From contig JAJEAG010000098.1 of the NCBI GenBank assembly GCA_022824265.1, positions 1 through 64,000 on the forward strand: DNA of 64,000 nucleotides, given 5' to 3'. The stretch comes from Candidatus Poribacteria bacterium. GTDB lineage: Bacteria > Poribacteria > WGA-4E > WGA-3G. Position 1 is the first letter of the stretch; each line of letters opens with the position of its first letter. The position numbers were made by a program, and so were the translations under genes. A model generated the notes under the pieces. The model searched no databases, had not been told where the DNA came from, and saw only the letters and a program-made list of their open reading frames with translations. This document shows positions 2,343 to 21,788 of the stretch, one piece after another.

Positions 2343-3113
2343 ATGAATAAAATTCTATTTTTTCTAATTCTCGGTCTCTTAGTTATTTCTCCTCAACTGA
2401 TGGCACTTGACACAAACGGCTTAGTCGGAGCGTGGCTAATGGACGATAAAGGAGATACAGTATCTGATTCTTCTGAAAACGGTTTGGATGGAAATATAGC
2501 AAGAGGAAATCCGAAATGGGTTGATGGTAAATTTGGCGGTGCTATGCAATTTGGCGGGGCAGATATGGTGACGGTCGCCGATGATGCAGCACTTGATCTC
2601 AAGTCTTTTACACTCTCAGCGTGGGTTAATATCCCGAAAATTACAAATGTATGGCAAATTATCGCTTCAAAAGAAAACCGAGGACCAACAGGTCGTAACT
2701 ACGGAATATTCGGTCATGTCAACAACGGTAAAATACATTATTCCTTCACAACCGCGAATGGTTGGAAATCTTTTGATGCAAATACTGTTGTCTCTAATGG
2801 TGAATGGCACCACATTGTTGCAACTTATGAAAAACCAGATTTCAAACTTTATGTAAACGGCAATGTTGATGCACAGGTTGCCCCAAATACCGATCCGGAT
2901 AACCATGATAATTTCCTTTTCATCGGAGGATGCGATATCGGTAATTATTGGATGACTGGATCTATTGATGAAGTCGTCCTCTATGACAGAGCTCTTGATG
3001 CGGCAGATATAAAAACTCTCATGAATAATAGTTTTACCGATGCTCTTGATGTGCAACCGGGTGGAAAACTGGTTACAACATGGAGCAAAATTAAGCGGAA
3101 ATCTTCATATTAG
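2343..3113 (+). CDS. Secreted LamG-domain protein with C-terminal KLxTTW tag (copy 1)
   Basis: A 256-residue exported protein. The signal peptide covers residues 1-21 (two Leu/Ile-rich blocks, cleavage after LMA). Residues about 25-225 form one LamG / concanavalin-A-like jelly roll: GLVGAWLMDD start, ADMVTVADDAALDL, FTLSAWVNIP, GEWHHIVATYE and the family ending IDEVVLYDRAL. Such domains usually bind glycans or mediate adhesion; no ligand can be read from sequence. The last residues, DVQPGGKLVTTWSKIK plus a short basic tail, match a motif shared with four other secreted proteins here. The AAAGGA ribosome site precedes the ATG. The next gene is a close paralogue of identical length, so this is a tandem duplication. 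Confidence 0.88.
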   Translation: MNKILFFLILGLLVISPQLMALDTNGLVGAWLMDDKGDTVSDSSENGLDGNIARGNPKWVDGKFGGAMQFGGADMVTVADDAALDLKSFTLSAWVNIPKITNVWQIIASKENRGPTGRNYGIFGHVNNGKIHYSFTTANGWKSFDANTVVSNGEWHHIVATYEKPDFKLYVNGNVDAQVAPNTDPDNHDNFLFIGGCDIGNYWMTGSIDEVVLYDRALDAADIKTLMNNSFTDALDVQPGGKLVTTWSKIKRKSSY

Positions 3114-3246
3114 TTTTGATACCAACACTAATAATCTATTAGTTTAGTGGGAGTCAACGTTAATGTGAATGTTTAATTTAAGATCATTTTCGTCACATGT
3201 TTGTACAGGTGGTGATTATGTTGACAGAATAAAAAGGAGAATATTT

Positions 3247-4017
3247 ATGAATAAATTTTCACTCATAGTAATATTAACACTACTTGCCATTACACCAAAT
3301 CTCATGGCTGTTACAACTGACGGACTTGTTGGAGCTTGGACGTTTGAGGACGGTTCAGGTGATAAGGTAATGGATTCCTCTGGAAACGATTTACATGGGG
3401 AAGTCACATTAGGTAATCCCAGCTGGGTCGATGGTAAATTTGGCAGTGCCTTGGAGTTTGGTGGTTCAGATATGGTTACTGTTGCTGATGCCGATGCTCT
3501 TGACCTAACATCTTTTACTATTGCAGCATGGATTAATAGTCCGAGAACATCAGGAAGGTGGCATGTTATCGCTGCAAAAGAAGCTCGTAATCCAACAGGA
3601 CGTAACTACGGTATCTTCGGTCATGTGAATACAGGTGTTATCCACTATTCCTTTACCTCAGGTGGTTGGAAATCCTATGATGCAAATACAAATGTTACGG
3701 ATGGTGCTTGGCATCATGTCGCAGCCACTTATTCCAAACCAGATTTTAAACTCTATATTGATGGTGAAGTGGACGCTGAAGTTGCACCGGATGCTGATCC
3801 TGAAAGCAACACCAGTCCTCTATATATCGGTGGATGTGACATCGGTAATTACTGGATGACAGGTGCTATTGATGAGGTAGTCCTATATGACAGGGCACTG
3901 AGCTCGGACGAAATCGCTGAACTCATTGCTGATGGAATTGCATCCGTAACGCCAGTTGAACCTGCTGATAAGTTGGTGACGACTTGGAGCAGAATTAAAT
4001 CAAAGGCAACAAAGTAA
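3247..4017 (+). CDS. Secreted LamG-domain protein with C-terminal KLxTTW tag (copy 2)
   Basis: Close paralogue of the gene just upstream, also 256 residues, with the same order: signal peptide (cleavage after LMA near residue 21), one LamG domain to about residue 228, then VEPADKLVTTWSRIK and a basic end. Several blocks are identical between the copies, such as NPTGRNYGIFGHVN versus GPTGRNYGIFGHVN, and DIGNYWMTG. The start at 3247 is chosen over an in-frame ATG at 3169 because AAAAGGAG lies just upstream and only this start gives a proper signal peptide. A hairpin follows at 4075. Probable surface or extracellular glycan-binding protein; substrate unknown. Confidence 0.88.
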   Translation: MNKFSLIVILTLLAITPNLMAVTTDGLVGAWTFEDGSGDKVMDSSGNDLHGEVTLGNPSWVDGKFGSALEFGGSDMVTVADADALDLTSFTIAAWINSPRTSGRWHVIAAKEARNPTGRNYGIFGHVNTGVIHYSFTSGGWKSYDANTNVTDGAWHHVAATYSKPDFKLYIDGEVDAEVAPDADPESNTSPLYIGGCDIGNYWMTGAIDEVVLYDRALSSDEIAELIADGIASVTPVEPADKLVTTWSRIKSKATK

Positions 4018-4170: not shown

Positions 4171-4446
4171 ATGGCTGAATTAAGACAGCAGCTTCTTGTC
4201 TTACATTTACATACACCAGACCTAAATAGCCACGTTGTTGCATGGGCAATGTATGATGGCACTGGGAAAAATCGCTATACCACAGGGGATAGCGAAGCAC
4301 CACCCTATAGCTCCGTTATTGAAGCAATGCAAGATGGTTGGCGGGTAATTCAGTTTCCGCAACAATTCCCCGCTTATCCTGGCATGGAGTATTACACTTC
4401 ATATCTAAGATTTGAATATATCTTAGAAAAGTTGGAGGAAATATAA
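4171..4446 (+). CDS. Small hypothetical protein coupled to PhyH dioxygenase
   Basis: A 91-residue soluble protein with no signal peptide and no motif I can name. It is rich in aromatic residues toward the end (FPAYPGMEYYTSYLRFEYI). AAGGAAGG lies upstream. Its TAA stop overlaps the ATG of the dioxygenase gene by one base (TAATG), which indicates translational coupling. A partner or accessory role with that enzyme is inferred from coupling only. Confidence 0.75.
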   Translation: MAELRQQLLVLHLHTPDLNSHVVAWAMYDGTGKNRYTTGDSEAPPYSSVIEAMQDGWRVIQFPQQFPAYPGMEYYTSYLRFEYILEKLEEI

Positions 4447-5264
4447 TGATTGATAAAGAACATCTCCTAACAACAGAACAGATGGCGAATTTCGTAGCCG
4501 ATGGCTACCTTCGTTTTGATGATTTTATCCCTGATGAATTGAATAAAGCCGCACATGAAGAGATGGCTTCAGGTGTATCGGTTCGAGGCGGGGGTGGTAC
4601 TGTTTTAGACGACGTATGGCAGGACGATTCCGCTGTAGGAAAGGTTTTTCGTCTCCCGAAGGTTCAAGGCATTATCCAAAGTCTTGTGGGTGAAGCACCT
4701 TTGTTTGACCATCATGCTGTTCACATTGTGCAACCACATAGGGAACATGGACAGATTTGGCACGCGGATGCGATCATTGATGTTCGGATGCATTTTGACA
4801 TCCAATTCTTCTATTTTTCCCATGACACACCTCGTGAAATGGGTGGTACAATGATATTGCCTGGGAGTCACTTCAGACGTGTGTGTGAAACAGACGTTGC
4901 ACGCTACCAAAACTTCCTCGGACAACACCCAATAGTCTGCAATGCTGGGACGCTTGTTGTTGTTCACCACGGGATTTGGCACTGTGCACAACCGAATTTA
5001 ACTGAAGATACCCGCTACATGTATAAACTACGACTTAACCCGACTGTCCGTCAAATGAAACTATGGAATACAGATGACATTGGTTCTGTTGGTATTGGTG
5101 GCGTATTAAGTCGTAACCATAGATGGTATGGTAATGATGTTCGGCTTGAAATAGTTAACCGAATTAAACTATGGCGTTTCCTGATTGGTGATGAATCGTT
5201 TGATGTCGGGTATTGGTTATCTCGACTTGAGAATATGCCTGAGAATGTACCCAACGTAGCATAG
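4446..5264 (+). CDS. Phytanoyl-CoA dioxygenase (PhyH) family Fe(II)/2-oxoglutarate oxygenase
   Basis: Predicted non-haem iron oxygenase of the PhyH family, 272 residues. The 2-His-1-carboxylate iron site is visible: H106-x-D108 in WHADAI and the distal His near 179 in GIWHCAQPN. Arg190 (EDTRYMYK) is placed to bind 2-oxoglutarate. The family hydroxylates very diverse small molecules, so the phytanoyl-CoA name does not define the substrate. GGAGG lies just before the ATG, and the gene overlaps the preceding 91-residue gene by one base. A very strong terminator lies about 40 bp downstream. Confidence 0.88.
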   Translation: MIDKEHLLTTEQMANFVADGYLRFDDFIPDELNKAAHEEMASGVSVRGGGGTVLDDVWQDDSAVGKVFRLPKVQGIIQSLVGEAPLFDHHAVHIVQPHREHGQIWHADAIIDVRMHFDIQFFYFSHDTPREMGGTMILPGSHFRRVCETDVARYQNFLGQHPIVCNAGTLVVVHHGIWHCAQPNLTEDTRYMYKLRLNPTVRQMKLWNTDDIGSVGIGGVLSRNHRWYGNDVRLEIVNRIKLWRFLIGDESFDVGYWLSRLENMPENVPNVA

Positions 5265-5301
5265 TTTATTATCAGATAAAGTATTGTATACTCAATAATA
5301 A

Positions 5302-5350
5302 AAGAATAACCCCGCAAAAAATAATTATATATTTTTGCGGGGTTATTCTT
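5302..5350. terminator. Strong bidirectional intrinsic terminator
   Basis: Perfect 19-bp inverted repeat (5302-5320 and 5332-5350) with an 11-nt AT loop. The stem contains a CCCCGC core with A/T runs on both sides, so either strand gives a GC-rich hairpin followed by U residues. It sits between the convergent PhyH gene (+) and the GspC-like gene (-) and should terminate both. Confidence 0.92.
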
Positions 5351-5375
5351 TATAATGATTCAAAAACGTAGTCTG

Positions 5376-6155
5376 CTAACGATCTCCACGTCCGCGTCTA
5401 CTACGACTAAATTCACGTATCATACGTTCACGTTGATCTCGAGAAGCACCCTCAAACCTTCTACGCATCTGTCGTGCCTTCTCCATCATTTCTTTTCTCA
5501 TTTGTTCACTTTTCATAAAGGCTTCTTTTGCTTTTCTAATAGCATCATCATTCTTAGATGATGCATTAGATTGATTATTGTCGTCATTGTTGGACTCTGA
5601 TCTTGATGAAGCACTATGTCTTGAAGAACCTCCAGATTTTATAGGTTGCCAAGTGCCACCTCTTAGTGTGATAGTCTCTCCATTTTTATCCAAAATGATC
5701 TGCTTTTCTTGTATTTCCTTTACAATAGCATCACCGACCTTGTCACCCACCATAGCAGTATAAAAATTACCGGAACGTCGTTCTAAAACATACGCTTTTG
5801 AGATCCTACCATTTTCATCTGTCTTTGTTCCCCTGAAAGCGTATTCCGGTTCTTTCTTGGGTGGTCTCCAACCGAGAGGACGGAAAATACTATTGTCAAC
5901 AATTACTTTGTAGTAATCGGAATTATCTTTTGACTCAGAATCTTTGGAATTTCTCTGTCCTGTCCAAGTTGAACCTTGTTGTCGGTTGCGGAACTGTTCC
6001 ATACGCATTGCGGTTTTTGCTGCGTCTTCATCCACCTTTGTTGCGATATTACCCTTTTTAGGTGAATATTGCGCATGCAGATGCACCCCATATACAAGAA
6101 GTAAACCGGCGACACAACATATTCCTAAAATGATGAGAATTTTTGAAAACTTCAC
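5376..6155 (-). CDS. Membrane-anchored protein with a GspC/PulC-like HR domain
   Basis: A 259-residue single-pass protein: N-terminal membrane segment near 5-27, a charged linker, then residues about 81-170 that look like the periplasmic HR domain of type II secretion protein GspC. Supporting blocks are DNSIFRPLG, YAFRGT, GRISKAYVLERRSGNFY, MVGDKVGDAIVKEI and ILDKNGETITLRG. A Ser/Asn-rich linker and a highly basic helical tail (from about 205, ending RSRRGRGDR) follow, which is unusual for GspC. No other type II secretion gene is in the window, so this is an orphan or part of a dispersed system. A terminator lies directly downstream. The HR-domain call is by pattern only. Confidence 0.7.
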   Translation of the reverse strand: MKFSKILIILGICCVAGLLLVYGVHLHAQYSPKKGNIATKVDEDAAKTAMRMEQFRNRQQGSTWTGQRNSKDSESKDNSDYYKVIVDNSIFRPLGWRPPKKEPEYAFRGTKTDENGRISKAYVLERRSGNFYTAMVGDKVGDAIVKEIQEKQIILDKNGETITLRGGTWQPIKSGGSSRHSASSRSESNNDDNNQSNASSKNDDAIRKAKEAFMKSEQMRKEMMEKARQMRRRFEGASRDQRERMIREFSRSRRGRGDR

Positions 6156-6415: not shown

Positions 6416-8056
6416 CTATTTTTCTTTTATATATAGAACCTGATTTGCGGGTGTGTTTTCAACGATCTGAATTGACCCACTAACCCAACGTACTTCAATC
6501 TTATCAACATTTTTGTGATTACCAAGACCGAAATGCATTTTTAATTCTCGTTGTGAAAGATAACCGTCACCACTCTGTATTTCACGTATTTGAGACAAAT
6601 CTCCTGCGGTTATCTTAACACGTGTTCCGATTGCATCCGATGAGGTATTTGTAGCTTTCAATTTAATCTGTAGCCAGTTGTTCCTGTTTCCTCCATCATT
6701 ACGTAATAGACGTGGAGGTGTATTGGAATTGGTCACAAGAATATCAATATCTCCATCTAAATCGTAATCCGCGAAAGTAGCACCACGACTTACATCTTCA
6801 AGAAGCATACCAGGTCCAAGAGATTGGGATATTTCAGTGAAAGTGCCATCTTGCATATTTTGAAAAAGCATGTTGCGTTGTTCATAGGTCCCTTCCTGTC
6901 CCAGTTCTTTCAGATTGTCATGCAGATGTCCATTAGCTACAAAAACATCTCCATATCCATCATTATCTATGTCAACAAATGCTGTTGCCCAACCAACATA
7001 CGGATATGTTATCTTTGCTGTTTTTGTTGTTGATGTTAAATCCGTAAAAAACCCGTCACCGTCATTATGGTAGAATGTATTAGTTTGTTCTGTGTAGTTA
7101 GTAACGGTCAAATCAATCCACCCATCGTTATCCCAATCACCAAACGCTGTACCCATACCGTTTTCTACAACACCGTTTTCACTTAGAGCTACTCCAATCA
7201 TAAACCCTATTTCTGTGAACTCACCGTTCCCTAAATTCCGATAGAATAAATTTTCCGTGGAATCGTTAGCTACATAAATATCGGTATATCCGTCATTGTT
7301 GTAGTCTCCCCATGCAACCCCCAAACCTTTACCGTTAGGATTAAAGATACCTGTTGCCTTTGTAACATCCGTAAAAGTCCCATCACCGTTATTTCGGTAT
7401 AGCACATCGGATTGTGCTACGAAGTTGTCTGGTTTACAATATGCTCGTATTCCTTTCTCTTTTAGTCCACACCACGGATTTTCCTCATCAAGCGAGAAAA
7501 CGATATAATTGACAACATAAAGGTCAATGTTACCATCTTTATCGTAATCAGCGAATGAACAGCCGGTGCTCCAACGCGGTTCAGTAACACCTGCTTCTTC
7601 TGTCACATCAGTAAATGTGCCATTACCATTATTTCGGTAGAGACGATTTTTGCCGAAATTAGTAATGTAAAGGTCCAGGTTGCCATCGTTATTGTAGTCC
7701 GCTACAGCACCCCCATGTCCATACCCATCGTCTCCCACTCCAGCTATCTGTGTTACATCAGTGAAAGTTCCATCACCATTGTTTTGATACAGACAGTTGA
7801 TGGGAATTTCTGTCATATTGTAACCGGGTAGAGGTGCCCCGTTGATCAAATATAGATCCGGATCATCATCAGAGTCATAATCGAAAAATACAGCACCTGA
7901 ACCGAGTATCTCCATTGGGAATTTATGACCACTCCGTCCATCTACGTGTGTCCAGTGAATTCCAGCTTCGTAGGTTACGTCAACGAATTGAACTCCGTTC
8001 CCAAAGGTATTAGGTAGAGGTAGCAAGATTAGTGTAATCAGTAGAAATTTATACAT
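6416..8056 (-). CDS. CRTAC1-type FG-GAP/VCBS repeat protein with ASPIC/UnbV domain
   Basis: A 546-residue exported protein with signal peptide in residues 1-20. Multiple FG-GAP/VCBS blade repeats fill most of the chain, each with a D-x-D-x-D-G calcium-binding-like loop (DYNNDGNLDLYITN, DYDKDGNIDLYVVN, DYNNDGYTDIYVAN, DWDNDGWIDLTVTN, DIDNDGYGDVFVAN, DYDLDGDIDILVTN), predicting an integrin-like beta propeller. The last 90 residues are the ASPIC/UnbV domain (WLQIKLKAT, GTRVKI, HFGLGNH, EVRWVSG). Last gene of a five-gene operon, 43 bp after the TPR gene. CRTAC1/TPR pairs recur in environmental bacteria; function unknown, probably surface binding. Confidence 0.9.
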   Translation of the reverse strand: MYKFLLITLILLPLPNTFGNGVQFVDVTYEAGIHWTHVDGRSGHKFPMEILGSGAVFFDYDSDDDPDLYLINGAPLPGYNMTEIPINCLYQNNGDGTFTDVTQIAGVGDDGYGHGGAVADYNNDGNLDLYITNFGKNRLYRNNGNGTFTDVTEEAGVTEPRWSTGCSFADYDKDGNIDLYVVNYIVFSLDEENPWCGLKEKGIRAYCKPDNFVAQSDVLYRNNGDGTFTDVTKATGIFNPNGKGLGVAWGDYNNDGYTDIYVANDSTENLFYRNLGNGEFTEIGFMIGVALSENGVVENGMGTAFGDWDNDGWIDLTVTNYTEQTNTFYHNDGDGFFTDLTSTTKTAKITYPYVGWATAFVDIDNDGYGDVFVANGHLHDNLKELGQEGTYEQRNMLFQNMQDGTFTEISQSLGPGMLLEDVSRGATFADYDLDGDIDILVTNSNTPPRLLRNDGGNRNNWLQIKLKATNTSSDAIGTRVKITAGDLSQIREIQSGDGYLSQRELKMHFGLGNHKNVDKIEVRWVSGSIQIVENTPANQVLYIKEK

Positions 8057-8099
8057 GTATGGTACCAGTATTTCAAGAAAATGAACTTGTTTTGCAACA

Positions 8100-9740
8100 C
8101 TATTTTTCTTTGATTTTCGTTAAGGTCTGTCGCAATGTTGATCTTTTGGGATCCATCCTAATGGCAGCATTTATAGCGTTTAATGCCTTTTCATGTTCCC
8201 CCGCATGATGGTAAGCTAAGGCAAGTGTTTCCAAGTATTGAGGGGTAGGGACTAACTTAACTGCTTTTTCAGACAATGTAATTATATCCTGCGGGTTAAC
8301 ATTATCAGGAAGTTGTGAGGTTAAGGTTTGTTGTGATTTCGATATAACATCAAGGTAAAGTCTTGCTAATCCATTTAATGCGTAATGTGCTTCACTGTCT
8401 AAGGTTAATGTTTCCTGATATGCCAGAAGTGCTTTGCTAATTTCACCACGGTGGTGATGTATTGATGCAATTCTACCTTTGGCTATTGCCAACGACGGAT
8501 CGTATTTTAAGGATGTGGAATATTCAGCAAATGCTTCATCAAATCGTCCCTGATAATGGTAAACCGCTCCTAATCCAGCGTGAAGCACCGCTTGTTTAGG
8601 TTCAACGGCAAGTCCTTCAAGATAAGACTGTTCTGATTCTTTTAGTCTGTTTGACCTAAAGTATAATTGCCCAAGTTTATAATGTGCTGCTGTGTATTTG
8701 GGATTTATTTGTATTGCTACTAAAAACGCATCAATTGCTTCATCAAATTTCTTATATTTTTCATAAGTAAGTCCCAGTTGGTAGTGTTTCAGTGGGTTGC
8801 TCGGTTCAATAATAATTGCCTGTTCACGATTGTCAATTTCTCGCGCAATATTGTTTAAGTGCTGATATGTTGCCATAGCCTTAGTGCCTTCTTCAACCTG
8901 TTTCAGTCTAAACAGTGCTTGGGCAAGATTGTAATAGGCACCTATATGGTCTGACTGTTGGGTAATAACAGTTCGGAAAATATCAGCGGCACGTTGATAT
9001 TCTCGCTTTTTTGTGTGGACTAAACCGAGACTATAATGCGCTGCAGTAAAATTGGGATCAAACTTTACCGCTTTTTCCAAATACAGAAGAGCTTTATCAA
9101 GGTCTCCTTGCTGTAGATAGATCGCGCCCAAGTTACCATTAGCCATAGTTAGTTCTGGCTTGATGGTTAAAGCACGTTTGTAGTAGTGAATTGCTTGGTC
9201 CAGTTGTTGAATTGATTCATAACAGGAGGCGAGATTTGTAATTGCTTCAGCAAGATTCGGAGATATGCTTAGACTCGTCTGATAGGTATCAATTGCTTTC
9301 TGAAACTGGTTATCATGCTGATAGGCATAAGCAAGACCAAGCCATACGTTAACAACATTAGGATATTTTGTGGTTAGTGTATGGTAGAGTTCAATTGCCT
9401 TGTCAAACCGAGAAGATTTTGTGTAGAGAAGGGCAAGATTTGTTTCAACTTGTAACAATCCTGGAGATAATTGCAGCGCATGTTTAAGGGAGGTTTCAGC
9501 CTTGTTGTATTCACCAAGGTGGAGGTGTATTGTACCTAATGCAGCGTGTGCTTTAGCGAAATTTGGATTATGTTCAATGGATTTCTGAAAACTTTGTAGT
9601 GCTTTTGCATATTCACCTTTACGAACTTCCTGCATACCACGCGTATAAAAATCTATTGAAATTTGCGATGAATGAACAGAAACATTGCCACAAAAATAAA
9701 GGCAAAGAATAATAACAAACGAGTGACGTTTTAACAACAT
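8100..9740 (-). CDS. Exported TPR-repeat protein
   Basis: A 546-residue protein of about 13-14 consecutive 34-residue tetratricopeptide repeats with the usual A-x-x-x-Y/G-x-A-x-x-x-P spacing (for example YKRALTIKPELTMANGNLGAIYLQQGDLDKALLYLEKAV split across repeats). The start at 9740 gives a hydrophobic signal sequence (LLKRHSFVIILCLYFCG), follows GAGGA, and sits 5 nt after the upstream stop; a start at 9776 would overlap that gene. TPR superhelices are protein-binding scaffolds, so this is likely a periplasmic or surface partner of the neighbouring CRTAC1 and SUMF1-type proteins. No enzymatic domain seen. Confidence 0.9.
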   Translation of the reverse strand: MLLKRHSFVIILCLYFCGNVSVHSSQISIDFYTRGMQEVRKGEYAKALQSFQKSIEHNPNFAKAHAALGTIHLHLGEYNKAETSLKHALQLSPGLLQVETNLALLYTKSSRFDKAIELYHTLTTKYPNVVNVWLGLAYAYQHDNQFQKAIDTYQTSLSISPNLAEAITNLASCYESIQQLDQAIHYYKRALTIKPELTMANGNLGAIYLQQGDLDKALLYLEKAVKFDPNFTAAHYSLGLVHTKKREYQRAADIFRTVITQQSDHIGAYYNLAQALFRLKQVEEGTKAMATYQHLNNIAREIDNREQAIIIEPSNPLKHYQLGLTYEKYKKFDEAIDAFLVAIQINPKYTAAHYKLGQLYFRSNRLKESEQSYLEGLAVEPKQAVLHAGLGAVYHYQGRFDEAFAEYSTSLKYDPSLAIAKGRIASIHHHRGEISKALLAYQETLTLDSEAHYALNGLARLYLDVISKSQQTLTSQLPDNVNPQDIITLSEKAVKLVPTPQYLETLALAYHHAGEHEKALNAINAAIRMDPKRSTLRQTLTKIKEK

Positions 9741-9745
9741 GGCAA

Positions 9746-10615
9746 TCAGTCCTCGGAAGGAGTGTCCATTACACAACGAAAGCCACGTAAGAGTGAACCA
9801 GGGTTACCACCAAATCGATTTGCACATCGTGTGAAATCTAAATTTTCTGCCCATCCACCACCTTTGAGAACATGACCGTCGCCTGTTTCTGGTCCCATAG
9901 GATTAGCATTCGGAGCGTAATCATAATAATCTGGATCATACAAGTCAGAAACCCATTCCCATAGGTTACCCGCCATATCATGAGCACCATAGGGACTTGC
10001 TCCTTGTGGAAATTGTCCAATTGGAGCAGTTAATTTATAGCCGTCAATTAATCCAGTACCATCATTTCCACTAAGTTTTGTAGCATCCCACTCATTACCC
10101 CAGGGCCAGATGCGTCCATCTGTCCCGCGTGCAGCTTTTTCCCATTCTGCCTCAGTCGGTAATCTTTTCCCTGCCCAATTTGCGTAAGCGACAGCATCTG
10201 TCCATTCTAATACTACAGCAGGCAGGTCTGCATCGTTATGAGGCGGATAATCTAAATATTTATTGGGTTTGTATCCGGTATCTGTTAGAAACTGTTTGAA
10301 TTGTTTATTGGTGACCTCAAATTGATCAATGTAGAATGCATCTAAGTATACTGTCCGTTGTGGACGTTCATTGTCAAATCGGGAGATGTTTCTGAGTGGA
10401 AATATTTCTTTATAATACTCTATATCAGCATCGCTGGTACCCATTAAAAAATCACCTGCTGGAACAAAAACCATTACACTTCCATCTTTAGGTGAGGTAA
10501 TGGTCTTTACAGGTGATGGTTTAACAGGTTGTGAATCCATTCTCTCACCACATGCAAAGACAAGTAGTAAGAGAATGGAATGAATAACAATGAAACAAAA
10601 TTGCTTATGTTTCAT
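9746..10615 (-). CDS. FGE-sulfatase (SUMF1)-fold lipoprotein lacking the catalytic cysteines
   Basis: A 289-residue lipoprotein with lipobox LVFAC (Cys22). Residues about 46-285 are a complete formylglycine-generating-enzyme/SUMF1 fold: MVFVPAGDFLMGT, DAFYIDQFEVTNKQF, RLPTEAEWEKAARG, PWGNEWD, DMAGNLWEWVSD, VLKGGGW and GFRCV. True FGE carries two copper-binding cysteines two and seven residues after the Trp of GGSW; here those positions are Glu257 and Thr262. It therefore should not activate sulfatases and more likely acts as a binding or structural domain, as in many bacterial SUMF1 proteins. The gene lies 5 nt from both operon neighbours. Confidence 0.9.
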   Translation of the reverse strand: MKHKQFCFIVIHSILLLLVFACGERMDSQPVKPSPVKTITSPKDGSVMVFVPAGDFLMGTSDADIEYYKEIFPLRNISRFDNERPQRTVYLDAFYIDQFEVTNKQFKQFLTDTGYKPNKYLDYPPHNDADLPAVVLEWTDAVAYANWAGKRLPTEAEWEKAARGTDGRIWPWGNEWDATKLSGNDGTGLIDGYKLTAPIGQFPQGASPYGAHDMAGNLWEWVSDLYDPDYYDYAPNANPMGPETGDGHVLKGGGWAENLDFTRCANRFGGNPGSLLRGFRCVMDTPSED

Positions 10616-10620
10616 TAACT

Positions 10621-11427
10621 TTATCTAACTGCTTTCAAGTCACCCCAGGTTGTTGATAACTTTCCTTCAGGTTGAACTGCGGTAGCATTTGCCATGAGCC
10701 AGATGATAATTTCAGCAGCGACTGCACCTTTTGGTTCATCACCGTTTGCAGTCTGTATAACTGGAATCAATCTACCGCGGTCTCCATCTCGCACAATAAT
10801 TGGGTCAGCACGTGTACCCGCTTCATTTTGTGCAAGTGATACCTCTACTTCCCAATTATCAGCAAGTTGATCAATGTGGAAGGGACGGTCAGATTGGAAT
10901 TCTGGTAGACTTGGAGCAATCTCTTTTCCTTTCTCAGTCACTATCATCGGTGTATTATCATCCCACATGACGATACCAGGAATATCCATCATATTTTCTA
11001 ACCCACCGACTTCATTGCGTGCTTGTAATCCCCAGAACATATAATCAGCGTGGTTGATGAATGCATCACCGTCTGTCGTTTCAATGAACAATTCCGCAAT
11101 GGAACCGTCAGGTTGTGTGTTGCCTTGTGGATAAATAGTTGGTGGTAAATCACCATATAACACACAGATATCCAAACCGTTGTCACCAGACACATCTTCC
11201 ATCCAACTCGCAACAGCGTCCATATCGCCATCACTATCATACAAAGTATTTTTAATACCTGCATCATTTAGCATGTCAATACAGATTTGTGCCTGCGCGT
11301 CTGCGGCATCCTTACTAATCCATTGAACAGTACCAGTGTAGATAATCACTTCACCTGCAGCAAACACTTGTGTAACGGGTAGTGCTAATAAAGCAATTAA
11401 CGTCGTGAAAATAACGACATTTCTCAT
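10621..11427 (-). CDS. Secreted protein of unnamed family with KLxTTW tag (copy B)
   Basis: A 268-residue exported protein with signal peptide ending near AFA (residue 23). The mature part shows an alternating alpha/beta pattern (VIIYTGTVQWIS, ICVLYGDLPPTIYPQGN, LIPVIQTANGDEPKGAV) that could be a ThuA/glutamine-amidotransferase-like Rossmann fold, but I see no catalytic triad, so I give no function. It ends AVQPEGKLSTTWGDLK, the tag shared with the LamG proteins. A close paralogue lies 4 nt upstream; shared blocks include YPQGN, FWGLQARNE and MMDIPGIV. Second gene of the five-gene operon. Confidence 0.85.
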   Translation of the reverse strand: MRNVVIFTTLIALLALPVTQVFAAGEVIIYTGTVQWISKDAADAQAQICIDMLNDAGIKNTLYDSDGDMDAVASWMEDVSGDNGLDICVLYGDLPPTIYPQGNTQPDGSIAELFIETTDGDAFINHADYMFWGLQARNEVGGLENMMDIPGIVMWDDNTPMIVTEKGKEIAPSLPEFQSDRPFHIDQLADNWEVEVSLAQNEAGTRADPIIVRDGDRGRLIPVIQTANGDEPKGAVAAEIIIWLMANATAVQPEGKLSTTWGDLKAVR

Positions 11428-11431
11428 TAAT

Positions 11432-12256
11432 TTACCTCCTTGATTTTATATCACCCCATAATGTGGGGAGTTTATTTGCGGGGTCAACCGCTTGAGCACC
11501 TACAGCTTCAATATAGTAATTCAGAATAATCTCGGCGAACACTTCACCCTTCGGATCATCTTGATTTGCAGTCTGATATACTTGGATGAGTCGTGCTTCG
11601 GTTTTTGTATTTCGAAGAATACATGGATCACACCGAGTTGATCCTTTTGCTTCTCCGGTATTTGTTGCAAAGGCAATTTCCAATTCCCAATCATTTGCTA
11701 ATTGGTCAACGTGGAAAGGACGATCAACCGCGTAATCTTTGAGCGTTGGTGTGAATTCCTTTCCTTCAGGTGTGACCTTCATTGGGGTATCGTCATCCCA
11801 TTGTACAATTCCAGGGATATCCATCATATTTTGGAGTCCACCGGCTTCATTGCGTGCTTGTAGTCCCCAGAAAAAATAATCAGCAGTATTAGCAAAAGTG
11901 TTTCCTGCATCAAGGAACTCCTCGGCAACAGAACCGTCAGGTTTAGCATTACCTTGAGGGTAAATTACAGGTGGAATATCACCAAACAAGACAATAATAT
12001 GATTTTCCTTTTTCTTAGTATGATTTTTTGTCCATTCTTCTAATGCGCCGGCACCCTCATTAACTACCTCACCGATGCCATTTTTTCCCGTGATCATATC
12101 AATCAGAATATCAGCCTCAGCTTGTGCAGCTGCTTGACCAATCCACTGTGTAGTCTCTGTGTAAACGAAAACATCCACTTGAGCATCAGCGTTAGGTATA
12201 CAGAACATTATCGCAATAGTGCACAAAACGCATATAACAGTAATAACAATCTTCAT
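11432..12256 (-). CDS. Secreted protein of unnamed family with KLxTLW tag (copy A)
   Basis: First gene of the operon, 274 residues, paralogue of the next gene. Signal peptide in residues 1-25 (cleavage after ADA). Shared blocks with its partner are IPPVIYPQGN, DYFFWGLQARNE, MMDIPGIVQWDD, DRPFHVDQLA and QTANQDDPKGEV. It has an extra Cys pair (RCDPC) absent from the partner. The C-terminus AVDPANKLPTLWGDIK is a slightly diverged form of the common tag (T-L-W for T-T-W). A strong AGGAGG site precedes the ATG by about 10 nt. Function unknown; a possible ThuA-like fold is only a weak impression. Confidence 0.85.
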   Translation of the reverse strand: MKIVITVICVLCTIAIMFCIPNADAQVDVFVYTETTQWIGQAAAQAEADILIDMITGKNGIGEVVNEGAGALEEWTKNHTKKKENHIIVLFGDIPPVIYPQGNAKPDGSVAEEFLDAGNTFANTADYFFWGLQARNEAGGLQNMMDIPGIVQWDDDTPMKVTPEGKEFTPTLKDYAVDRPFHVDQLANDWELEIAFATNTGEAKGSTRCDPCILRNTKTEARLIQVYQTANQDDPKGEVFAEIILNYYIEAVGAQAVDPANKLPTLWGDIKSRR

Positions 12257-12643: not shown

Positions 12644-13612
12644 TTATTCTGAAGGCTCTGAGGTTAAAGATAGAAATAATTCCTCTAAACTCATCTCATC
12701 TGTGCGTAACTCAAGCATATCCCACCCAGAATTAACAACAGTTTTTGCGACTTCTGGACGGACATCTGTATCCATATCATAACGAATAAGATATGTATCA
12801 TGAACATTTTCAGTGGAATGTTCTACACCAAGAACATTTGGTATATTTCTTAGTGTTTCAATTATTGTTTCAGGTTGTCCGCCAGATAACGCAAGTGAAA
12901 GTGTTTTGTAGGCAGCATCAATTCGGTCTTCATTATGTGTGTGACTTGGAACAGCGTGTCCGTTGGATAATGAGACATCACCAGTAATTTTACCATTGCT
13001 GATAATTAGCAACCTTTCACACGTCAGGCTTGCTTCGGGTAGGATGTGGGTGCTGAAGAGAATAGTTCGCTCTTTGCCAAGTGATTTAATCAACTCACGG
13101 ATTTCAACGATTTGTCGTGGATCTAAACCTGATGTGGGTTCATCGAGGATTAGAACTTCTGGATCATGTATGAGTGCTTGTGCTAAACCTACGCGTTGTC
13201 TGAAGCCACGTGACAACTGTCCAATAATTTGATGCCGTCGTTCTAATAGACCGCACGACTCAATAGCAACATCTAATCGTTCCTTTATTTGTTTGCGTGG
13301 AACACTTCGGATTTTTGCCATGTAAGAAAGATATTTTGTTACTGTCATTTCATTGTAAAGTGGAATATTCTCTGGGAGATAACCGATCCGTTTACGGACT
13401 TCGCGCGATTCCTTGAATACATCGTATCCCGCAACAGTGGCAGTTCCTTTACTTGCTGGCATAAAGCAGGTCAAAATCCGCATCGTGGTAGTTTTCCCCG
13501 CACCATTTGGACCCAGAAAACCAACGATTTGTCCTTTGTCTACTCTAAAGGATATATCCTTGAGTGCTTGAAATGGACCGTAGTTTTTTGATAAGTTATT
13601 GACTTCAATCAT
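12644..13612 (-). CDS. ABC transporter ATP-binding protein (GldA/multidrug-type)
   Basis: A 322-residue cytoplasmic ATPase. Walker A GPNGAGKT at 34-41, signature LSRGF at 133-137 (Arg in place of the first Gly of LSGG), Walker B VLILDE at 153-158, and the H-loop in FSTHIL. The C-terminal 100 residues resemble the extension of GldA/CcmA-type ATPases of gliding and drug-export systems and end SLEELFLSLT. No permease gene is adjacent; the downstream side is intergenic, so the partner must be encoded elsewhere. The start MIEVNNLSK is the usual one for the family. Confidence 0.9.
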   Translation of the reverse strand: MIEVNNLSKNYGPFQALKDISFRVDKGQIVGFLGPNGAGKTTTMRILTCFMPASKGTATVAGYDVFKESREVRKRIGYLPENIPLYNEMTVTKYLSYMAKIRSVPRKQIKERLDVAIESCGLLERRHQIIGQLSRGFRQRVGLAQALIHDPEVLILDEPTSGLDPRQIVEIRELIKSLGKERTILFSTHILPEASLTCERLLIISNGKITGDVSLSNGHAVPSHTHNEDRIDAAYKTLSLALSGGQPETIIETLRNIPNVLGVEHSTENVHDTYLIRYDMDTDVRPEVAKTVVNSGWDMLELRTDEMSLEELFLSLTSEPSE

Positions 13613-13673
13613 GATTTCTATTGGTTTAGTTTTTGGGAAATGATAACAGCAGATGATGGTGAGACTTTATGGT

Positions 13674-14567
13674 TTAATCAACGTGATCGCTACTATTCCT
13701 CGGGATAGTAAATTCCAGATCTCTGGGACGACCAGATAGATACAAATTGTTATCGGGATTAACACTTTCGGATTCCGCAAGCACTTCAGGTAAATCAACT
13801 GGTACAGATTTAACCTCAATTCTATCTGGGTACACAAAGACCTGTCGCCACATCATCGGATAGCATATAATACCAGATGTGACAATACACAACAAACCTT
13901 GTTCTCTAAAGACGCGGTTGAGATGTAAATGTCCACAAAAGAACGCTAAAATCTGTTTTTCAAAAGGTGCGGCGATTTCAATGATTTCAGCTGAATTTGC
14001 AATCCGAGAACCAACCCCTTGAAACTCTACGCTTGGGAATGGCAGTTGATGTGAAAAAAAGATTATTTCCTCACCATAATCAGCTGCTTTTTTCATTTCA
14101 CGTTCTACCCAAGCAAGTTGATTCGTACTGATATATCCATGGGTTAAATCTTTGGGAACTTCTTGTGCATCGAGCAAAATAAAACGGATATTGTCTTTAA
14201 CAAAACAGGTTGACCCCATACCATTTATACCGAACCGTTCTATATATGCGTCTTTAGATCCAGTTTCTGGATCAAGATCATGGTTGCCTGGGATATGATA
14301 ACATGGCATATTCAAACGTTCACTTAGCATTAGAGCAGCATGCAATGATGCGACATATTCTTCTGCCGACATATCAAAACTATTCCCACCACAGACTATA
14401 TCTCCCCCATGAACAACAAAATCGGGCTCAAATGCGTTTAGTTGTTCAATCAGTTTTTCATAGAGTGCCAAACTGTTTAATTGCTGTTGTAACCCACTTG
14501 CATAGTTTTGAGTTGCATTGAGGTAAAGATGTGTATCAGTTATAAATGCGAACTTGAAAGGTGTCAT
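13674..14567 (-). CDS. Calcineurin-like metallophosphoesterase
   Basis: A 297-residue soluble enzyme with all five metal motifs of the superfamily: DTH near 11-13, GGD near 55-57, GNHD near 95, SHQ in FFSHQLPF, and GHLH in FFCGHLHLNR. These coordinate a two-metal centre that hydrolyses phosphomono- or diesters. The layout resembles the CpdA/3',5'-cyclic-AMP phosphodiesterase class, but substrate cannot be assigned. No signal peptide. It precedes a palindromic repeat and a sulfatase on the same strand. Confidence 0.88.
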   Translation of the reverse strand: MTPFKFAFITDTHLYLNATQNYASGLQQQLNSLALYEKLIEQLNAFEPDFVVHGGDIVCGGNSFDMSAEEYVASLHAALMLSERLNMPCYHIPGNHDLDPETGSKDAYIERFGINGMGSTCFVKDNIRFILLDAQEVPKDLTHGYISTNQLAWVEREMKKAADYGEEIIFFSHQLPFPSVEFQGVGSRIANSAEIIEIAAPFEKQILAFFCGHLHLNRVFREQGLLCIVTSGIICYPMMWRQVFVYPDRIEVKSVPVDLPEVLAESESVNPDNNLYLSGRPRDLEFTIPRNSSDHVD

Positions 14568-14627
14568 TTCATAACTCGTTTTCTTAGATTTTTGATATTA
14601 ATAGACAAACCTGTTACTACAGTCTAT

Positions 14628-14759
14628 CTCATAAATCGTTTACTTGATCTCTTACAGAAAATCACATCTTCATCGTAGGGGTGAGGTTTCCTCGCCCTCA
14701 GATAGAAAAGGTACTTCTAATCGGGCGGGGAGACCCCGCCCCTACAAGTGATTTATGAG
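14628..14759. repeat. 132-bp nested inverted repeat element
   Basis: Outer arms CTCATAAATC (14628-14637) and GATTTATGAG (14750-14759) enclose two inner palindromes that are inverted copies of one another: GTAGGGGTGAGG...CTCGCCC (14675-14697) and GGGCGGGGAGACCCC...CCTAC (14723-14745). The whole element can fold as a cruciform. It lies between the sulfatase and metallophosphoesterase genes and belongs to the CCTAC repeat family. Confidence 0.7.
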
Positions 14760-14768
14760 GACGCGCTA

Positions 14769-16115
14769 CTATTTGACATAACCTGTTGTTCCGTTGCGTT
14801 CTTCCTTATGTGCTTCCCAGTAATTTTCTATACCTTGTCGCCATGTTTGTGCCGCTTCTGTGAGTTCAGTTGTGATTTCAGGATATTCATCCTTCAAATT
14901 TGTCGTTTCACCCATATCAGTTTCAAGGTTTGCAAGGTGAACATCATCTTCGGGCGGTGCACCTTCAACCAATCGACCATTCAGGACTAATTTCCACTTG
15001 TCTCTTCTCATGGCAGTCTGGTCTCCCATCTCCCAAAAAATATCAGTGTGCGGAGAGAATTGACCATCACATACCATCGGGATTAAGTCTAATCCATCAA
15101 GTTCATATTTGGATAGATCCGCTTCGGCAGCGGATAGAAACGTTGGAAAAACATCCATTGCTGCACCGATCAGACTTAACACGTTACCAGGAGGTATCTC
15201 TTTAGGCCAATGCATAATTCCTGGAGAACGGATTCCTCCTTCATATAAACTGAATTTATGTCCTTTCAATTTACCAGCACTGCCACCGTAGTATGGATCT
15301 TGTGTGCCATCTAACCAATTTCTTGTTTCACGTGAGGGTCCATTGTCACTCTGGAAATAGGAGAAGGTATTTTCTGCAACACCCAATCGTTCAAGTTCAG
15401 CGAAAATCTGACCAACGCTATCGTCAACAGCACTTAACATCGCAGCCATAATCTGTCTGTCCCAAGGTAGATTTGGAAACCTATCAACATATTCTTGTGG
15501 TGCATGCATCGGGTAGTGTGGTGCATTGTATGGCACATACAGGAAAAACGGCTTATTTTGCTCAACTGCTTTTCGGATATATCTTACAGCATATTCTGTT
15601 ATCAACTCCGTAAAGTATTCACCGTTTCTGTATATTTCCTCTCCGTTTTCCCATAGGTCGTGTGTCTGGTCAAAATCGGGTCGTCCTAAAGCCCAATAAA
15701 AGATGTGAGAATAGAAATCAATACAACCTGCTAAAAATCCAAACCAATCGTCAAACCCGTGATCCTCTGGACGTGAACCCTCAGCAAGTCCAAGATGCCA
15801 TTTTCCCGACATCGCAGTGTAATAACCGAGTTCCTTAAGCGCAGTTGCAATCGTAGGGACGGAAGGTGGTAATCCAGTCGCTGTTCGGTGTCCTGCTAAG
15901 ATAGAACGAACTCCTGCATGACACGGATACCGTCCTGTTAATAACGCTGCACGAGATGGAGAACAGACAGGTGAATTGGAGTACCAATCTGTAAAACGCA
16001 TACCTTCAGATGCCATTCTATCCAGATGCGGAGTTCTGAAATCTGTAGCACCCATACAGGAAAGGTCACCATAGCCTTGGTCATCGGTTAAAAAAATGAT
16101 AAAATTAGGTTGCAT
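14769..16115 (-). CDS. Type I sulfatase (GALNS/arylsulfatase-like)
   Basis: A 448-residue alkaline-phosphatase-superfamily sulfatase. The N-terminal metal site is FLTDDQGYGD (D11, D12). The modified-cysteine motif is C51-S-P-S-R followed by AALLTGRYP, so it needs conversion of Cys51 to formylglycine. SGKWHLG holds the Lys/His of the second signature and FQSDNGP further metal ligands. No signal peptide is visible from the chosen ATG, which is unusual for a polysaccharide sulfatase. The best guess is hydrolysis of a sulfate ester on a sugar; the substrate is unknown. The FGE-like gene in the window lacks the catalytic residues, so maturation must be done elsewhere. Confidence 0.92.
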   Translation of the reverse strand: MQPNFIIFLTDDQGYGDLSCMGATDFRTPHLDRMASEGMRFTDWYSNSPVCSPSRAALLTGRYPCHAGVRSILAGHRTATGLPPSVPTIATALKELGYYTAMSGKWHLGLAEGSRPEDHGFDDWFGFLAGCIDFYSHIFYWALGRPDFDQTHDLWENGEEIYRNGEYFTELITEYAVRYIRKAVEQNKPFFLYVPYNAPHYPMHAPQEYVDRFPNLPWDRQIMAAMLSAVDDSVGQIFAELERLGVAENTFSYFQSDNGPSRETRNWLDGTQDPYYGGSAGKLKGHKFSLYEGGIRSPGIMHWPKEIPPGNVLSLIGAAMDVFPTFLSAAEADLSKYELDGLDLIPMVCDGQFSPHTDIFWEMGDQTAMRRDKWKLVLNGRLVEGAPPEDDVHLANLETDMGETTNLKDEYPEITTELTEAAQTWRQGIENYWEAHKEERNGTTGYVK

Positions 16116-20999: not shown

Positions 21000-21788
21000 T
21001 TATTTCGTTTTGATCCGTGCCCATGTTGTGGTTAACTTGCCTTGTGGAAGGACATCTGCAACTGGATTTTCCATATCCATCATGAGTTCGTCTTGAGTTA
21101 ACGCATAGTCATATATCTTGATTTCATCAAGTGCACCATTGACAAAACGTTGGTTTCCACCTCGAGCACCAATATAAAGTGGTTCATTGTTAGCGGTTAG
21201 TTTACCCTTACATTCCAATTCTTTATTGAGTTCCCCATCAATATACAATTTGATTGTGGTACCATCCCATGTTCCTGCAAGAAAGCGCCATGTTTCATCC
21301 TGTATACTGTCACCAATATTATGTTCGCGGCAATTATCTGGCAGATCAAAGAATTGAAGTAACGACCCACCGCGGTACCATGCTGCAAGCGTAAACAGTC
21401 CAGCTTTCCATGTATTACCTTTTTCAACACCTGTCTGAACATCTGAACCAGGACCACCAGCACTCGCCTTGATATTTGCCCAGAATTGAACCGTAATGCC
21501 ATCAACAACATGGAGGCTATCGTCATCTTCGACTTCACCCCATGATGCACCATCTAACTCTATCGCTTTTCCAAACTTTCCATCGACTAATTTATGTTTA
21601 CCATTGAATTCTGCATCATTACCATAGTCAGACAAATCAGGTGCTACGTCCCCATTTAATTCATCAAAGGATAGGTGCAGGATAAGGTCATCAGCCGAAC
21701 ATATACCAGTCAACAAAACAGTTCCGAAGAGGATAATGTACATTCCAACACAAGTAAAAAAACTATATCTTTTCGTCCAAAAGTTCAT
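21000..21788 (-). CDS. Secreted LamG-domain protein with C-terminal KLTTTW tag (copy 3)
   Basis: A 262-residue exported protein with a hydrophobic segment near 10-30 (cleavage near CSA). Residues about 33-240 form a LamG jelly roll (LILHLSFDELNGD, KAIELDGASWGEVED, ITVQFWANIK, WRFLAGTWDGTTIKLYIDG, LDEIKIYDYALTQDEL). It is more distant from the 2.3-4.0 kb pair, and yet it ends with the same tag, DVLPQGKLTTTWARIK. First gene of a unit with the cyclophilin pair. Binding target unknown. Confidence 0.88.
   Translation of the reverse strand: MNFWTKRYSFFTCVGMYIILFGTVLLTGICSADDLILHLSFDELNGDVAPDLSDYGNDAEFNGKHKLVDGKFGKAIELDGASWGEVEDDDSLHVVDGITVQFWANIKASAGGPGSDVQTGVEKGNTWKAGLFTLAAWYRGGSLLQFFDLPDNCREHNIGDSIQDETWRFLAGTWDGTTIKLYIDGELNKELECKGKLTANNEPLYIGARGGNQRFVNGALDEIKIYDYALTQDELMMDMENPVADVLPQGKLTTTWARIKTK

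Follow-up and report, generated by a model that had tools for sequence, protein, structure and literature searches.

The window, a stretch of 64,000 nucleotides of Candidatus Poribacteria DNA, carries five genes on its minus strand between positions 12256 and 6416. Taking the ATG at 9740 as the start of the TPR gene, the gaps between them are 4, 5, 5 and 43 bp, as an earlier note on this DNA had described. The TPR gene has a further start upstream, a TTG at 9776 (9776-8100); the internal ATG yields a product of 546 residues. According to the list of open reading frames, P1 has 274, P2 268, the FGE-fold lipoprotein 289 and the CRTAC1-type protein 546 residues. The operon products are exported by our reading of their N-termini as signal peptides, in line with the earlier note, and the FGE protein has a lipobox (LLVFAC↓G). 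The KLxTTW tag which that note had assigned to both paralogues holds to the letter for P2, which ends in KLSTTWGDLK, whereas P1 ends in KLPTLWGDIK.

Table 1. Operon genes, tags and other tagged proteins in the window.
Feature	Position	Strand	Basis
P1, exported protein, predicted ThuA-like fold, C-terminal tag at end (KLPTLWGDIKSRR)	11432..12256	-	ORF; 49% identical to P2
P2, exported protein, predicted ThuA-like fold, C-terminal tag at end (KLSTTWGDLKAVR)	10621..11427	-	ORF; predicted model
Lipoprotein with FGE (SUMF1) fold and another residue at one FGE cysteine position	9746..10615	-	PF03781 and lipobox
Exported TPR protein (ATG start)	8100..9740	-	ORF, TPR families
Exported CRTAC1-type protein, FG-GAP repeats and ASPIC/UnbV domain	6416..8056	-	Pfam; own-genome family survey
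P1 tag, K to stop	11432..11473	-	strict pattern match at 11444-11473
P2 tag, K to stop	10621..10662	-	strict pattern match at 10633-10662
Tagged exported LamG protein outside the operon	2343..3113	+	Laminin_G_3 2e-28; tag KLVTTWSKIK
Tagged exported LamG protein outside the operon	3169..4017	+	Laminin_G_3 4e-29; tag KLVTTWSRIK
Another tagged protein elsewhere in the window	21000..21788	-	tag KLTTTWARIK

Upstream of the operon, positions 12644-16115 hold ABC ATPase, metallophosphoesterase and sulfatase genes; in another genome (G007) the same block is followed by a paralogous FGE-FGE-P2-like cluster (L111). The tandem LamG genes (2343-4017) adjoin a PhyH-family gene. Promoter-like sites were no commoner than chance (18, with 20.9 expected).

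What kind of protein are P1 and P2? The two belong to the same family in an alignment of 52 sequences. Neither matches any Pfam model (E up to 0.01), those for ThuA included, or any NCBIfam model, and a search of PDB sequences with P2 and its family profile returned nothing meaningful, the best profile match being a short stretch to a designed PPR protein. A structure model of P2, built from 52 sequences with a mean pLDDT of 85, matches ThuA-like structures (Foldseek E 2e-5), with Z scores of 11.2 to 1t0b over 203 residues, 10.6 to 4pxy/4jqs, and 9.8 to 8aa2_G, an entry of the levan utilisome complex. The P1/P2 domain is accordingly modelled, and predicted, as a ThuA-like fold with no conserved catalytic cysteine. 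The best cysteine column in the family is occupied in 23 of 52 homologues; there is therefore no glutaminase site, and the assignment of the pair as class I glutamine amidotransferases was rejected. The model leaves the tag disordered, at pLDDT values below 50, and the tag residues K256, W261 and K265 are invariant in the 52 sequences. In Bacteroides, a levan surface glycan-binding protein contains a levan-binding ThuA-like domain reported to resemble entry 1T0B (PMC7618045); by analogy, this offers a precedent for glycan binding by a ThuA-like fold, not a proof for P1 and P2.

Homologues of P2 were absent from the plasmids and viral contigs searched. The genome of the window holds a further P2-like gene (G000:C20:33926-34621) whose alignment runs across one TAA stop, and several P2-like copies in relatives are also aligned over a stop; possibly the match extends past it. 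The domain is found in much larger proteins as well. Three large exported proteins (L104 40-2667, L105 4511-7225, L106 152-2275) combine a P2-type domain with cohesin, dockerin and a FlgD-Ig tail, a composition that suggests a cellulosome-like surface assembly; another (L108 5466-7619) carries it with LDL-receptor class B repeats, dockerin and FlgD-Ig, and a protein of 1465 residues (L110 2135-6532) with dockerin and a Por-like tail. One domain is therefore found either with the short tag or, in these large proteins, with a FlgD-Ig or Por-like tail.

The lipoprotein is a clear member of PF03781 (FGE-sulfatase; 1.5e-57, 195.6 bits, cut-off 23.3). Could it activate sulfatases? In an alignment that includes the human enzyme, the position of human Cys341 is cysteine in 33/33 orthologues, and the position five before it (human Cys336) is Leu in 25, His in 5 and Lys in 3. 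With one of the catalytic cysteine pair missing in all 33, the assignment as a sulfatase-activating enzyme was rejected, as was that as GldK/PorK (92.2 bits, curated cut-off 350). The TPR protein matches TPR_1 at 4e-75. The CRTAC1 protein contains FG-GAP_3 in seven stretches and a UnbV_ASPIC domain (6e-23, 81 bits, cut-off 23.4). CRTAC1, TPR and FGE proteins form large families in this genome, with 12 hits for CRTAC1 and 22 for FGE. The absence of an obvious enzyme site, claimed in the earlier note, is borne out by P1 and P2, in which no catalytic cysteine is conserved, and by the FGE protein, which has lost one cysteine of its pair. The binding folds that the note had recognised are found throughout the operon products.

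Is this arrangement of genes conserved? We used the window proteins as queries on loci of 34 relatives; all relatives are named Candidatus Poribacteria or uncultured Poribacteria. P1, P2 and the FGE gene stand together in 32 of the 33 relatives' loci that can be judged, the exception being L072 (L068 is cut). Beyond what chance would give, the full set of five keeps its order in 10 other loci spanning several families, six of them from the same genus (L039, L040, L041, L042, L045, L048) and four from deep lineages (L066, L069, L070, L071); at L065 the first four are present and then the contig ends. The relatives of the five genes thus do co-occur, rather than being scattered through other genomes, and their order is kept. 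In L043 and L068 the TPR-CRTAC1 genes adjoin the tagged pair on the opposite strand, and in two sister genera they lie apart from the tagged pair and FGE gene in most relatives. Where they have moved away, TPR and CRTAC1 are still paired in 8/8 genomes (G018, G019, G023, G027, G031, G033, G082, G083). In G048 the contig with the best CRTAC1 match shows no recognised TPR gene beside it, and in G046 the search found no more than a CRTAC1 paralogue at 54%, next to a weak TPR match. Because the pairing is kept both where the parts are together and where they are apart, the operon is, as judged by gene order, two stable modules joined: the tagged pair with the FGE lipoprotein, and TPR with CRTAC1.

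The tag extends well beyond this operon. Its consensus is V-[ED]-P-x-x-K-L-x-T-T-W-[GA]-x-[LI]-K. The DNA pattern K-L-x-T-x-W-G-x-[ILVMF]-K has 47 sites in the genome of the window and none for a reversed-pattern control; with G or A allowed after W, sites are present in 84/84 Poribacteria genomes (1-128 each, reversed-pattern controls 0-2). All sampled matches in the own genome lie 1-10 residues ahead of a stop, and at the protein level 69/69 matches in 812 kb of loci are C-terminal, none internal. Among 109 unique C-termini from carriers sampled through loci, V at -5 (96%) and P at -3 (90%) are columns for which the search did not select, whereas the values for K (99%), T (98%), W (100%), G/A (94%), L/I (96%) and the final K (99%) are biased where the search pattern fixes the column, and P1/P2 orthologues weigh heavily throughout. 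The distance from K to stop is 13 residues in 70 of the 109, and the mean net charge is +3. Thirty other carriers are about 20% identical to one another, and their invariant columns all fall within the tag. A strongly hydrophobic N-terminus is found in 31/34 carriers, compared with 18/40 ORFs of the window. Most sampled carriers are small (215-345 aa), and 21/30 have a LamG domain; 3-keto-disaccharide hydrolase-like (3keto-disac_hyd, 2/30 other tagged proteins), PD40 propeller and DUF4960 domains also occur, and one tagged protein (L078) has no PDB match.

Neither Pfam nor NCBIfam has a model that covers the tag, and TIGR04183/Por_Secre_tail matched none of P1, P2, the two LamG proteins and the 30 other tagged proteins. 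Searched with a stricter form of the tag, 2.9 million IMG/VR contigs yielded 15 matching stretches. In a literature search we found no text printing six common variants of the tag and no description of it. The tag appears to be a phylum-wide, fold-independent and undescribed C-terminal signal on exported, mostly lectin-fold proteins.

By which route might tagged proteins leave the cell? The single-cell study of Kamke et al. (2014) found Por-type tails on poribacterial proteins and no Por structural genes (PMC3909097). In our survey, SprA-like proteins are detected in 83/84 Poribacteria genomes at E<=0.001, only one of them over the curated cut-off; that of the own genome (L143:4616-11083) has 2155 aa and scores 4.8e-39, 133.5 bits in five stretches, against a cut-off of 200. 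The PorV family is over its cut-off in 84/84 genomes, and Por-type C-terminal tails are likewise present in 84/84. The GldM motor gave 0/59 matches, and the controls gave none either. A link of the tag to type IX secretion (SprA/PorV) is plausible, if unproven. The numbers of tags and Por tails per genome look unrelated by eye (G049, for example, has 1 tag and 26 tails), which leans towards separate routes.

Could the FGE lipoprotein and the TPR protein, then, belong to a machine that secretes or anchors tagged cargo, much as GldK/GldJ and SprE/PorW belong to type IX secretion, with P1 and P2 as the cargo? The phylum-wide SprA-like proteins, PorV and Por-type tails would fit such a machine, as would the occurrence of the P2 domain with dockerin and FlgD-Ig or Por-like tails in large proteins. 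However, the FGE protein falls short of the GldK cut-off, TPR-CRTAC1 lies apart from the first module in many genomes, tag and Por-tail counts look unrelated, and all SprA matches bar one are below the curated cut-off. We consider this explanation unlikely.

A different doubt concerns whether the products interact at all. The operon may be a loose grouping of generic exported proteins, its order kept by descent and co-regulation; this would suit the large gene families, the separation of the modules and the patchy presence of the close orthologue within the genus (7/18 same-genus genomes, the window's own counted). Against it, the same ingredients recur elsewhere. In one relative a P2 domain and an FGE domain are fused in a single protein of 683 residues (L107 4340-6391), and in the paralogous clusters L115 and L116 P1/P2-like genes stand beside FGE-like genes, as they do in L119, which also has a CRTAC1 gene. 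In the own genome, a tagged gene shares the same-strand run at 7/11 CRTAC1 loci, several of which also include a TPR gene; at another CRTAC1 locus (L153), FGE and TPR genes lie directly upstream. We applied a circular-shift test in three genomes, counting CRTAC1 genes with a same-strand tag within 3 kb: these number 4/10 in G010, where 0.29 are expected (0.0002 of shifts), 4/17 in G019, where 0.56 are expected (0.0016 of shifts), and 0/8 in G043, of a distant genus. CRTAC1 and the tag are therefore strongly associated in the family to which the window belongs, but not universally. Since CRTAC1, TPR and FGE families are large, some adjacency may stem from duplication of one ancestral cassette. 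Together with the P1-P2-FGE order kept across families, these recurrences make a mere grouping rather improbable. The claim of the earlier note that the five genes form one system thus stands in part: conserved order, the P2-FGE fusion and the paralogous clusters speak for it, while the division into two modules, their separation in most relatives of the sister genera and the patchy orthologue speak against it.

The paralogous cluster of L115 and L116 consists of a P1/P2-like pair and two FGE lipoproteins, with a further gene in between. In L115 (8384-9649) a scan places this gene in the di-haem peroxidase (CCP_MauG) family; in L116 a gene of equal length (4238-5503) occupies the corresponding position.

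A catabolic unit for keto-sugars, in which ThuA-like and 3-keto-disaccharide hydrolase-like proteins would be metabolic enzymes and not binders, is suggested by the fold of the P2 model and the two other tagged proteins matching 3keto-disac_hyd, but is improbable given that P1 and P2 have no conserved cysteine and that no ThuA model of Pfam matches their sequences, and that the operon has no redox or sugar-processing enzyme.

We favour a surface substrate-capture cassette of two modules, a reading that we believe about as much as we doubt it; glycan binding, surface location and complex formation of the products are inferred. In the first module P1 and P2, Sec-exported ThuA-like proteins without a conserved cysteine nucleophile, would act as glycan-binding proteins, held at or delivered to the cell surface via the short C-terminal tag, and their partner would be an outer-membrane lipoprotein of non-catalytic FGE fold. 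In the second, the exported TPR protein would serve as a scaffold and, with the FG-GAP/ASPIC propeller of the CRTAC1 type, link exported binding proteins in a larger array. As the tag sits on dozens of small exported proteins throughout the phylum, the cassette would be one of many that use a common C-terminal surface signal. Against the capture reading, none of the five genes encodes a transporter or a homologue of SusC/SusD, nor was a SusC/SusD pair found among the scanned flanking genes, and the TPR protein could be periplasmic. More tentatively, and with rather more doubt than belief, we propose that the tag is a new type of C-terminal signal for sorting or anchoring, shared by all Poribacteria and read by some machine (possibly a SprA/PorV branch), and that TPR-CRTAC1 cassettes are surface partners of tagged binding proteins.

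Poribacteria are dominant, uncultured symbionts of sponges, and their surface biology is largely unknown. With a tag on tens of exported lectin-like proteins per genome, the surface proteome could be listed from sequence alone, and the tag gives a handle for finding the machinery that reads it. The SprA-like and PorV-family proteins make the export route testable, set against the 2014 report of no Por structural genes. The operon provides a compact case, in which two tagged, predicted binding proteins come with a partner lipoprotein, a scaffold and a propeller; of the two outcomes, we regard the tag as more valuable than the operon.

How do these elements compare with known systems? Short, fold-independent C-terminal sorting tags that follow an N-terminal signal peptide are familiar from PEP-CTERM, LPXTG and others. 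The Poribacteria tag is likewise short, C-terminal and fold-independent, on proteins with an N-terminal signal peptide, but it contains neither a membrane-spanning segment nor an LPXTG or PEP motif, and no NCBIfam model matches it. The type IX sorting domain TIGR04183 resembles it in being C-terminal on exported proteins, dozens per genome, in Poribacteria; the tag, however, has about 13-18 residues and sits on small proteins, while most Por-tail frames listed are larger. P1 and P2 share a predicted fold with ThuA-like proteins (1t0b, 4pxy/4jqs), from which they differ in their low identity (about 9-12%), the lack of a Pfam match, their export and their C-terminal tag. Like Bt1761 of the Bacteroides levan utilisome, they would contain a ThuA-like domain, which in Bt1761 serves to bind glycan within an exported surface complex based on lipoproteins (PMC7618045); unlike Bt1761, they are single-domain, soluble, tagged proteins, not lipoproteins, with no sequence match to it, and their operon is without SusC, SusD or a glycoside hydrolase. 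The operon lipoprotein shares the PF03781 fold family with the formylglycine-generating enzyme (SUMF1), but is a lipoprotein with Leu, His or Lys at one catalytic cysteine position. Finally, the propeller protein has the FG-GAP repeats and UnbV_ASPIC domain common to CRTAC1/ASPIC-UnbV proteins, and in contrast to other members of that group, the copies described here stand in cassettes with tagged lectin-fold and TPR proteins.
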